A DNA stretch of 64,000 bases from Planctomycetota bacterium. GTDB taxonomy: Bacteria > Planctomycetota > UBA1135 > GCA-002686595. Shown in pieces: positions 7,557 to 11,129 of this stretch; positions within the stretch are counted from its first letter, which is position 1, and each line of letters begins with the position of its first letter. The stretch spans positions 1-64,000 of the forward strand of contig JAKLKU010000009.1 of assembly GCA_023150475.1 (NCBI GenBank), written 5' to 3'. The notes beneath the pieces were generated by a model. That model was given only the letters and a program-made list of their open reading frames with translations. It was not told the DNA's origin and ran no database searches. A program made the translations under genes and the position numbers.

Positions 7557-7835
7557 AGCCGCCCGACGGGAAGTCACCGCGGGCGAGGCCCGCCCGGCTG
7601 CGTCCACTGGACGTGGACTGGCCGCATGCAGAACGAAGCCGCGTCGCCGAACCGGAGTGAGAGACGAGGGAGACGGATCGGTTCGACGACGCGGCCCACG
7701 CCATCCACGCCGCGGGGGCGTGCCAGGGTTCAAGTTTTTCCGGATCGTCGGCAACCCTCGCGGTCGCGACCAGGCGAGTACATTGGTCCAGGACCGAATT
7801 CCGGGTTCGGCAGGACCCAGGAACTCGCGCGCGGC

Positions 7836-10800
7836 ATGCAAGGCGACGACTCGCACCTCGAACCGCACATGGACTCGGGTTCACCTGAAGCGCTGCTCGC
7901 GCATTCGTCGTTCGTGCACTCGCTCGCGTCGCGGCTCGTCTTCGACCGCGACGAGGCCGAGGACGTCGCGCAGGACGCGTGGGTGTCCTTCCTGCGGACT
8001 CGGCCGGACGCGTCGCGTCCGCTGCAGGGTTGGTTCCGTCGCGTGGTCCAGAACCACGCGCTCCAACGCCGGCGGGGCGCGGGTCGGCGCGGCGCACGGG
8101 AGCAGGCCGTCGCACGCCCCGAAGGACTGCCCTCGACCGAGGAGATCGTCGAGCGCGAGAACGCGCGGCGCGCCGTGATCGACGCGTTGGTCGCGCTGCG
8201 CGAACCGTACCGCACGACGATCCTGCTGCGGTTCTACGACGATCTGCCGCCGGCGAAGGTCGCCGAACGCCTCGGCGTGCCGCTCGAGACGGTGCGCACT
8301 CGACTGAAGCGCGGGCTCGCGCTCTTGCGCGAACGACTCGATTCGTCCGCCGGTGGGCGCGAACAGTGGACGTTCGCGCTGCTCCCGCTCGCGCTGCCTC
8401 GCGAAGGCGGCGCCGTCGTCGCCCGCGAACTCGCGCGCGGCGCGGAACGGGCCTGGCGCGCGAAACTCGCGGCGCTGCTCGGTGTCGTGTTGGTGGCGTT
8501 CTTCTTCGCTCGGTGGTGGTTCGGCGCCGACGCGGCCGTCGCGATGGCCGAGTTCACGCCGAACGAGGCGACCTCCGCCGTCGAACCGCTCGCCGAACAA
8601 GTTGCTGCACCGCCGTTCGAGCCCGAGCCCGCGCGCACGGCTTCCGTCGTCGCCGAACCAACCGAGACGTGGCACGTGACGGTCCTCGACGACGTCGCTC
8701 GCGCGCCGCTCGTCGGGCTGCCGGTCAGGGTGCGGATCGCAGGGCTCGAAGCGCTCGAGCGCGCGTCGGACGAGCGCGGCCGGATCGAACTCGCGGTGCC
8801 GTACGGGCGCTCGGTGGCGCTCGAGACGTCGGGTTCCCGCTTGGCGTTGGGTGGCAGGCTCGACGTCGCGGCGAGTCCGGCGAAACACGCCGACGAGCCG
8901 GCGCTCGACGCGACCGCCCTCGACGAGCGCGCAGCGGCGGCGCCGGTCGAACTGCGCAACCCGGGCGAGCCGCGAAGCATCGAGTGGCTCTTGCCCGCCG
9001 CGTCGTCGCTCGTCGGCCGCGTCGTCGACGCCGACGGGTTGCCGGCCGGAGGCGCGACGGTCTGGCTCTTCCACGGATTGCACCCGATCGTCGATTCGGG
9101 CGCCCCGGTGGATCCTGCCGCGTCGGTCGTCAGTGCGTCCGACGGCAGCTTCGAGTTCGCCGGACTGCCGCGCGAGTTCTCGGTCTTCGCGGAGCGCGGG
9201 GACGAAGTCACGCAGGCGGGGCTCGCCGCACAGCTCGAACGGCCCGGGCACGTCGACGCGATCGAACTGCGGCTCGCGCCGGCGTGGCGCGCGCGTGGTC
9301 GCGTCGTCGACCTGCGCGGCAATCCGCTCGGCGGAGCGCAACTCTCGGCCGCGAACCACGATCGCCGCGGTCGCGGGCGTTCGGCCGGCCATCCCGGCGT
9401 GAGCTATCGCGTGCTCGTCCGCCAGCGCACGACCTCCGACGCGGACGGTTCGTTCGCGTTCGAGCGACTCGCGCCCGCGCAGCACGAGTTGACCGCGGCC
9501 CTGGATCCGTACGTCGACGGGACGCTGCAACTCGTCGCCCCTGGCGACGACCTGCAGTTCGTCCTCGGCTCCGGCCGCGAACTCGCGATCTGGGTGATCG
9601 ACGCGGCCGGCGCGCCGCTGCGCGACGCGCGAGTGCGCGTGCTCGGGACGGCGCGCGATCCGCGCGTCGAAGCGGCGGTCGACGGCTCCGGCCACGCGTA
9701 CTTCTCGACCGACGGCGAGGAGGGTTTCTTCGTGCGCGCCGTCGCGCCGGGTTTCGCCGTGCGCTTCGAAGGTCCGTTCACGGCGGCGGGCGCCGTGCGC
9801 GAGCGCGTCACGCGGCTCGAACGCGCCGCGCCGATCCGAGGTCGCGTGCTCGACGCGGAGGGCCAGGCCGTCCCCGGCGCGGTCGTCGAAGCGCGGATGC
9901 CGAGCGAGCGTGTCGAGCACTTGCGCGAGCTCTGGGCACCGAAACTCGACGAGACGCTGATCGTCGCGCGCGTCACGACCGACGCGTCGGGAGAGTTCGT
10001 GCTCGACGGCACCGACGGACGCGAGTACGAGCTCGCCGCGTACCCGCCCGGCGCGACGTCGGCGCGCGCGCTCGCGCGGGCGAACGGCGGAGCGAGCGGC
10101 GTCGAGCTCGCGTTCGGCGCGCGCAGCAGCGACACGCTCACGTTCGTCGGGCGCGTCTTCGACAGCGAGTTCGGCGCGGCGATCGACTCGTTCCGTGTCG
10201 TGGCGCAACGCGCGGGCGAACAAGGCGAACGTGCGGTCGCCGCGCAGACGTTCACGAGCTCCGACGGAACGTTCGAGCTCTTCGCCGGGCGTCCGGGGCC
10301 ATGGTGGATCTGGGTGCGTGCGGAGGGTTTTGCTCCGTGGTTCCTCTCGACCCGCGACTACGAGCCCGGCGAGCCGCTCCTCGCCTGCGAACTGACCCGA
10401 GCGCTCGACGTCTCGATGCGCGTCGTCGACGCGCGCGGCGAGCCGGTGACCTCCGCCCGCGTGATCTGCAGCAGCCCCGACGGCCGGCCGCTGCCGACGA
10501 TGATCAGCTCGGGCTACTGGATGAACTCGGTGCCGGCCGACGCGCGCGGCACCGCGGAGTTCGTCGGTTTGCCTGCGCGGCCGTTCCACGTCGAAGTCCG
10601 CGTCCCGGAGTTCCGCGAGCTGTTCGCGTTCGACGTCGATCCCGCGACGGCGGCGGAGGGTGTCGTCGAGCTCCGCTTGCCCGTCGACGTGAGTTCGCCG
10701 CGCCGACCGCTCGAACTCGCGTTCGTCGCCGAGAGCGGGGCGCACGCGAACGACGATGCGCATGCCCCGTCCGGCGCGCCGTGGTCCGGCCGCGGCAGCG

Positions 10801-11129
10801 TGCGGGTGTTCGACGCCGCGGGCAAGGTGTCGGCGAGCTTCGCGGGCGAGTTCGGCCCGCAGGGGTTCCGGCAGGACAAGCCGTTCCAGTACTTCATCGT
10901 CAGCGTCGACGGCGGGACGACGACTTCGCACGTCTATCAGCGCATCGAACACGTCGACCCGGCGGGGCTTCGCGACGGTCCGGAGTCGCTCGCGGACGGG
11001 CGCCTGCGCGTCGGCCTGCCGCTCGACGCGGCGTGGCTCGAGTTCACGCCGGAGGGCGGCGAGCCACGACGCTTCGCACTCGATGTCGCGCGCGACGCTC
11101 GGCTCGTGCTGCGCCTCGAGACGCGCTGA
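7836..11129 (+). CDS. ECF sigma factor fused to a TM helix and carboxypeptidase-regulatory-like repeats
   Basis: This 1097-aa protein has three parts. Residues about 20-85 match sigma region 2 (DEAEDVAQDAWVSFLRTRPD, then GWFRRVVQNHA). Residues about 105-165 match region 4 (LREPYRTTILLRFYDDLPPA, ERLGVPLETVRTRLKRGLALL). A single hydrophobic helix at about 200-220 follows a basic stretch, placing the sigma part in the cytoplasm. The remaining 880 residues, outside the membrane, hold about seven modules of GRVVDxxGxPxxGAxV ... DGSFEFxGLP type, as in carboxypeptidase-regulatory/CnaB-like folds. The inferred role is a one-protein signal system that senses wall or exterior state and releases or activates the sigma domain. 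No separate anti-sigma gene is adjacent. The start could also be the ATG at 7869. A TACATT hexamer at 7779-7784 is a possible -10. Confidence 0.85.
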   Translation: MQGDDSHLEPHMDSGSPEALLAHSSFVHSLASRLVFDRDEAEDVAQDAWVSFLRTRPDASRPLQGWFRRVVQNHALQRRRGAGRRGAREQAVARPEGLPSTEEIVERENARRAVIDALVALREPYRTTILLRFYDDLPPAKVAERLGVPLETVRTRLKRGLALLRERLDSSAGGREQWTFALLPLALPREGGAVVARELARGAERAWRAKLAALLGVVLVAFFFARWWFGADAAVAMAEFTPNEATSAVEPLAEQVAAPPFEPEPARTASVVAEPTETWHVTVLDDVARAPLVGLPVRVRIAGLEALERASDERGRIELAVPYGRSVALETSGSRLALGGRLDVAASPAKHADEPALDATALDERAAAAPVELRNPGEPRSIEWLLPAASSLVGRVVDADGLPAGGATVWLFHGLHPIVDSGAPVDPAASVVSASDGSFEFAGLPREFSVFAERGDEVTQAGLAAQLERPGHVDAIELRLAPAWRARGRVVDLRGNPLGGAQLSAANHDRRGRGRSAGHPGVSYRVLVRQRTTSDADGSFAFERLAPAQHELTAALDPYVDGTLQLVAPGDDLQFVLGSGRELAIWVIDAAGAPLRDARVRVLGTARDPRVEAAVDGSGHAYFSTDGEEGFFVRAVAPGFAVRFEGPFTAAGAVRERVTRLERAAPIRGRVLDAEGQAVPGAVVEARMPSERVEHLRELWAPKLDETLIVARVTTDASGEFVLDGTDGREYELAAYPPGATSARALARANGGASGVELAFGARSSDTLTFVGRVFDSEFGAAIDSFRVVAQRAGEQGERAVAAQTFTSSDGTFELFAGRPGPWWIWVRAEGFAPWFLSTRDYEPGEPLLACELTRALDVSMRVVDARGEPVTSARVICSSPDGRPLPTMISSGYWMNSVPADARGTAEFVGLPARPFHVEVRVPEFRELFAFDVDPATAAEGVVELRLPVDVSSPRRPLELAFVAESGAHANDDAHAPSGAPWSGRGSVRVFDAAGKVSASFAGEFGPQGFRQDKPFQYFIVSVDGGTTTSHVYQRIEHVDPAGLRDGPESLADGRLRVGLPLDAAWLEFTPEGGEPRRFALDVARDARLVLRLETR

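Follow-up and report, generated by a model that had tools for sequence, protein, structure and literature searches.

A one-protein ECF sigma factor with a predicted membrane tether and a CarboxypepD_reg exterior, one of about nineteen in a planctomycete genome

Signalling across the membrane to ECF sigma factors usually involves two proteins. In a 64,000-nucleotide stretch of planctomycete DNA (the window; contig JAKLKU010000009.1 of assembly GCA_023150475.1), a single gene encodes an ECF sigma factor, a membrane helix and a long modular exterior (Table 1). The locus raises the question of how a sigma factor built in this way is held off, whether it is set free, and what its exterior does. A preliminary description of the DNA read the protein as a direct sensor that signals by release, cleavage or pulling.

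That description placed sigma regions 2 and 4 in one 1097-codon frame starting at 7836, and both the domains and the start hold. Domain searches recover PF04542, PF08281 and the sigma70-ECF model TIGR02937 (67.9 bits, cut-off 42.9). With sigma2 and sigma4 and no other sigma regions, the protein has the features of the ECF sigma-70 group, and Foldseek and sequence searches match its front to SigL, SigE and SigW. The whole chain contains two cysteines. The frame stays open upstream to 7626, and the ATG at 7836 is taken as the right start because the same codon is aligned in three congeneric orthologues. An antisense frame of 1023 residues is open opposite the gene (7881-10952); since GC-rich DNA gives long antisense frames by chance, frame length is weak evidence and the case for the gene rests on homology.

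Table 1. Features of the sigma factor gene, in window coordinates
Feature	Residues	Position	Strand	Basis or remark
CDS, 1097 aa: sigma2, sigma4, linker, TM, spacer, eight beta domains		7836..11129	+	single frame; start codon aligned with three congeneric orthologues
Sigma region 2	22-84	7899..8087	+	Pfam PF04542, E 1.9e-9
Sigma region 4	112-164	8169..8327	+	Pfam PF08281, E 1.5e-10
Cytoplasmic linker (predicted)	169-210	8340..8465	+	motif R175..W178..A181-L182.P184-L185; no anti-sigma domain
Linker helix	175-186	8358..8393	+	predicted in both AF2 models
Single transmembrane helix (predicted)	206-229, hydrophobic peak 211-229	8451..8522	+	hydropathy, AF2; inside positive, Trp at outer end
Membrane-proximal exterior spacer	230-275	8523..8660	+	disordered (pLDDT 32-37), poorly conserved
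About eight transthyretin/CarboxypepD_reg-like beta domains	276-344, 380-466, 472-577, 581-649, 656-776, 785-842, 848-966, 985-1095	8661..11120	+	CarboxypepD_reg 2.3e-44; AF2 strands

The hydrophobic peak is the only clearly hydrophobic segment of the protein (Kyte-Doolittle 2.08 over 19 residues), and the flanks of the helix carry net charges of +3 inside and -2 outside. Mean flank charges over 58 family members are +1.2 inside and -0.5 outside; the inner charge is the greater in 43 of the 58 and the reverse holds in 5 (p = 3e-8). From this charge asymmetry the predicted topology is N-in/C-out. AlphaFold2 (AF2; mean pLDDT 81.6) on a 40-row alignment gives the sigma helices, the linker helix, the membrane helix and low confidence over residues 229-272, and a 58-row alignment returns the linker helix together with one long helix through the membrane. 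AF2 confidence for linker and membrane segment is modest (block means 46-82). Hydropathy, charge and AF2 all agree with the preliminary description of one hydrophobic helix with a basic flank on the sigma side.

That description left juxtamembrane conservation to a survey of homologues, and the survey finds both the R..W..AL.P linker motif (W in 45/57, R in 41/56, L182 in 45/58) and an aromatic residue at position 227, the outer end of the helix (55/56), conserved. The linker spans about 20-50 residues across the family, the membrane segment beginning 21-50 residues after sigma4 in nearly all fused paralogues. The W motif also occurs in a sigma gene without a membrane segment, the tandem sibling of one fusion in four congeneric genomes, and so belongs to the sigma factor and not to the membrane part. 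The tail of this short gene's product (L021:4577-5425 (-); counterparts L086, L087 and L090), roughly 50 residues long, is conserved: GGDR.WAGALMSLMP...AAWIRSGRV. In the fusions, sequence changes fastest in the membrane-proximal exterior (18-38% identity between orthologues), so that no conserved site-1 sequence is visible.

The exterior matches CarboxypepD_reg (PF13620) in six stretches (150.1 bits, gathering score 32.3). The preliminary description was right about a modular exterior of this kind and slightly low in counting about seven modules, as the AF2 strands of residues 276-1095, mostly with pLDDT above 85, divide into eight by our own division. Foldseek matches are to beta modules of pilin, alpha-2-macroglobulin and SdrD, and NOMO2 is matched in sequence. 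Because beta domains of this structural type are common in adhesins and pilins, a sensing role for the exterior is an assumption.

Neighbours of the gene in the window are rho, a gene for a glycosyltransferase-like membrane protein, a NUDIX gene and the pyruvate dehydrogenase E1 gene, in a block that ends with a histidine kinase. The order rho-GT-sigmaTM-NUDIX-aceE-HK is kept in congeners G001 and G003, and congener G002 keeps it over the part that its contig covers. Among congeners the fusion is 53-60% identical over its full length and the neighbour genes 72-90%, with sigma the most conserved part of the fusion. The element GTGAGAGACGAGGGAGACGG (7657-7676) and its flanks (approximately 7640-7720), strongly conserved in three congeners, lie in the interval that separates the sigma gene from the glycosyltransferase-like gene, some 160-180 bases ahead of the sigma start. 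This element is a candidate promoter or leader element, and an Rfam search of the upstream region gave no credible match.

The preliminary description treated the gene as a single case, which it is not. The organism's own genome (5.94 Mb, 85 contigs, 73 sigma2 matches) encodes about 19 fusions, the window gene and 18 others in which the sigma factor is followed, shortly after sigma4, by a helix and then by a long exterior. Its view of the gene as a one-chain fusion is borne out by this large paralogous family of the same layout and by fused orthologues in three congeners. Matches at 1e-20 occur in 30 of 41 near genomes, the own genome counted, and matches at 1e-12 in 62 of 149 genomes drawn over the phylum, the weak end of which includes ordinary ECFs. 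Of 40 members aligned, every one has matches to sigma2 and sigma4 and 38 to CarboxypepD_reg. The succession of sigma, linker, membrane helix and exterior recurs in many families of Planctomycetota, and taken together these sigma-TM proteins, with their differing exteriors, form a large planctomycete group. When co-inheritance of sigma and exterior is considered, best partners agree in 10/56 cases and the matrix correlation of 0.18 lies inside the permuted range, a comparison that carries no information because sigma similarity is saturated. At L308:264-1010 (+), a sigma-TM member has an exterior of only about 40 residues, a natural tethered sigma factor without a sensor domain.

Pfam and the NCBIfam matches shown place no anti-sigma domain in the window protein, and none of the FecR surface-signalling type; zf-HC2 (PF13490) gives no match at E up to 1. 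Linkers as short as those of the family leave no place for a usual anti-sigma domain, and that of the window protein (42 residues) has no Pfam match. Elsewhere in the genome there are 11 zf-HC2 matches, 10 of them over the cut-off, and 9 of the 11 genes lie within about 0.7 kb of a sigma2 match, so that ordinary ECF/zf-HC2 pairs number at least nine. The fused sigma factors of this genome have no zf-HC2 gene near them. Separate anti-sigma genes, present in the genome beside other sigma factors, are thus unused at the fusion loci, and the earlier remark that no anti-sigma gene adjoins the window gene is confirmed by its neighbours.

The one-chain architecture, its conservation, the predicted topology and the lack of an anti-sigma domain or neighbour are the observations to be explained. 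The best explanation, to which we give about an even chance, is that the window gene encodes a membrane-tethered one-protein ECF sigma factor whose exterior senses, whose tether inhibits and whose release comes most likely by regulated proteolysis. The sigma part (residues 1-168) would be cytoplasmic, joined to the inside-positive membrane helix by a short linker with a docking-type helix, while about eight beta domains on a flexible spacer would monitor something in the envelope. With neither a partner protein nor a domain of the anti-sigma kind, it would be the tether that restricts the sigma factor's access to RNA polymerase or promoters. Activation would follow cleavage in the disordered spacer and then in the membrane, freeing sigma and linker. 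Three M50 site-2-protease genes are found in the genome, which says little for release because M50 proteases occur in nearly all bacteria. The direct-sensor reading of the preliminary description is borne out in part: its architecture of sigma factor, helix and modular exterior on one chain stands, whereas direct sensing and signalling by release, cleavage or pulling are conjecture, with no conserved site-1 sequence to mark a cut. Sensing by the exterior, an inhibitory tether and a proteolytic switch are our inference. A link to the CPBP intramembrane protease elsewhere in the window, raised in that description, is speculative.

Analogy suggests that the sigma factor is probably released by proteolysis. 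IutY is freed by Prc and RseP and is active in truncated form (PMC8999054), and for SCO4117 truncation data accompany a proposed excision (PMC5826349). Several Tuwongella ECF sigma factors were recovered in the detergent fractions S2 and S3, which is consistent with membrane association (PMC8567305).

Action while still tethered is the chief rival to proteolytic release, and we hold it doubtful. In the manner of ToxR or CadC, the exterior would shift conformation or cluster, and the tethered sigma factor would bind RNA polymerase and promoter uncleaved. The single-pass, N-in, one-component layout and the absence of a conserved cleavage region fit such action, and a linker whose length and helix are conserved would lend itself to mechanical or conformational coupling. 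However, a sigma factor has to join core polymerase and then either move off the promoter with it or dissociate, which we infer to be harder on a tether than it is for a DNA-binding activator, and IutY, a tethered ECF for which data exist, is released by proteolysis (PMC8999054).

The relatives carry a further feature that the window gene alone could not reveal, as it lacks the motif. In 30 of 48 relatives a conserved glycine just before the helix is encoded by GGA (p = 1e-12), a codon that accounts for 18% of glycine codons overall, and in 23 this GGA is followed by G. Four positions later the aligned codon is ATG in 17, GTG in 14 and TTG in 2, and valine at that position is GTG in 14 of 15. 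This codon bias at aligned positions describes an internal Shine-Dalgarno and start pattern: GGAG, eight bases and an in-frame start codon, as in record JAEUIB010000008.1 (GGGAG TCGCGGCG ATG). The predicted products typically begin M-S/A/G-T-K and run directly into the helix, like ordinary membrane-protein N-termini. At the aligned site the window gene reads GGC GCG GAA CGG GCC TGG and has no internal start, which is also missing in its orthologues and four nearest relatives; its sigma factor is therefore always on the chain.

Because the first set of relatives had itself suggested an internal start, an independent set of 60 members from 18 other genomes was tested, the motif being defined as a Shine-Dalgarno sequence 4-10 nt before an in-frame ATG, GTG or TTG at the helix. 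The motif is present in 34 of the 60, against 8.4 +- 2.6 expected from synonymous reshuffling (maximum 17 in 1000) and 7.8 +- 2.6 from a genome-matched codon control. Its frequency is 6% in other in-frame windows of this set, and other frames give 3 and 0. At least one motif-bearing member is found in 15 of the 18 genomes. The own paralogues carry it in 9/18 cases (1.8 expected); among members further removed, which include some whose exterior is of PQQ or serpin type, the count is 8/21 (2.2 expected). On the sigma tree, most inner branches of which are weak, the motif is clustered (26 changes, 39.7 when shuffled). A programmed frameshift at GGAG was rejected, since +1-frame stops come no closer than expected from the amino-acid content and the other frame has none near. 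Likewise, a general aid to membrane insertion was rejected because none of 24 transmembrane Ser/Thr kinases of the own genome has the motif. That genome has 41 Pkinase matches at E up to 1e-15; in most of them the kinase is followed by a hydrophobic helix, often with an RR-rich inner flank.

Judged from these codon statistics, the internal start in about half of the relatives should make an exterior without sigma. Internal translation starts are known from cheA-L/cheA-S and infB, where an in-frame internal Shine-Dalgarno sequence and start in one gene yield a shorter second protein. The likeness lies in one gene with two in-frame products; the difference is that the relatives' start, seen in sequence statistics only and absent from the window gene, would part a sigma factor from its membrane-anchored exterior. 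Whether a two-product class extends across Planctomycetota, with a sigma-bearing minority reporting on a pool of sigma-less copies and the window clade lacking the second product, seems evenly balanced. A literature search found no report joining internal starts with sigma factors in planctomycetes.

Distant relatives with other exteriors also carry such a motif. In L200:1046-3256 (+) the sigma factor and helix are followed by an entire serpin (PF00079, 3e-110), and GAGGAG with an in-frame ATG precedes the helix; here a protease inhibitor is wired to a sigma factor. L188:434-3442 (-) and L191:621-3014 (-), from another family of the phylum, are sigma-TM proteins whose exteriors are PQQ_2 propellers, and both have GGAGG plus ATG at the helix.

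An internal start also bears on a reading that we find rather unlikely, in which the gene serves chiefly to make the exterior, as an envelope structural or adhesive protein, with sigma reporting whether it is assembled or lost. The relatives' internal start would then supply the bulk of the exterior and a minority of copies would carry sigma, whereas every copy from the window gene carries it. The motif counts (34/60 independent members, 9/18 own paralogues) set against Shine-Dalgarno sequences at about 9 of 65 sigma starts, a crude count, speak for this reading, as does the one distant relative whose complete serpin could work without sigma; the absence of the internal start from the window gene and its four nearest relatives speaks against it. 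Two genes joined by an assembly or sequencing error, or a decayed functionless relic, are scarcely credible: decay does occur in the family, as two further own-genome paralogues look frame-broken, with the sigma match cut or ending with the frame (L034:5319-7343 (-); L036:4306-6864 (+)), but nothing of the kind was found for the window gene, whose sigma, linker and membrane segment are 85-95%, 69% and 78% identical between its own genome (G000) and G001, the same fusion stands in the same place in three congeners, which refutes a joining error, and recurs in dozens of genomes, and none of the five shorter members readable past sigma is split by a stop between sigma and helix, these being members whose exterior is short, whose frame breaks further on or that lack a membrane part.

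Both tethered ECFs and planctomycete ECFs with large C-terminal parts are already known. Jogler et al. are said to have described, in 2012, the group ECF01-Gob, planctomycete ECF sigma factors extended at the C-terminus by WD40 repeats or other long parts. These share with the window protein the phylum and a large beta-rich C-terminal part, but the exterior here is CarboxypepD_reg, with no match to WD40 repeats in Pfam; distant members keep the plan of sigma, linker and membrane helix with PQQ-propeller or serpin exteriors. WD40-bearing ECFs of planctomycetes are also mentioned elsewhere (PMC8567305).

Membrane-tethered ECFs are represented by ECF52 and IutY (PMC5826349, PMC8999054). ECF52 (SCO4117 of Streptomyces), a group confined to Actinobacteria, carries an anti-sigma-like zinc finger (zf-HC2) together with a Pro-rich region and a carbohydrate-binding module (PMC5826349, PMC8999054). 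Like the window protein, it joins an ECF sigma factor, a transmembrane region and a long exterior on one chain, its exterior holding a binding domain and its release by proteolysis having been proposed. The window protein, in contrast, has no zinc finger, and its exterior is CarboxypepD_reg with no carbohydrate-binding domain in Pfam; the membrane segment is present. IutY of Pseudomonas putida (ECF243), part of an iron-starvation surface-signalling system, has a fused anti-sigma part (PMC8999054). It too unites sigma and membrane part in one protein, and the model of regulated intramembrane proteolysis is borrowed from it, but the window protein lacks an anti-sigma domain.

The literature search found no paper combining an ECF sigma factor with a carboxypeptidase regulatory domain, the main ECF-classification and planctomycete papers lying outside its reach. 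Compared with the literature searched, the new elements appear to be a CarboxypepD_reg exterior without an anti-sigma domain, about 19 such proteins per genome, the conserved R..W..AL.P linker helix and the putative internal start of relatives. Part of this may already be published in the principal ECF-group papers.

One genome thus encodes about 19 one-protein ECFs alongside its nine or more ordinary sigma/anti-sigma pairs. Because the chain holds no anti-sigma domain, experiments can address directly how the tethered sigma factor is kept inactive and whether cutting is required. Should the relatives' internal starts be in use, a single gene would yield a sensor coupled to transcription together with an uncoupled version of that exterior, an arrangement with no report in the literature searched.
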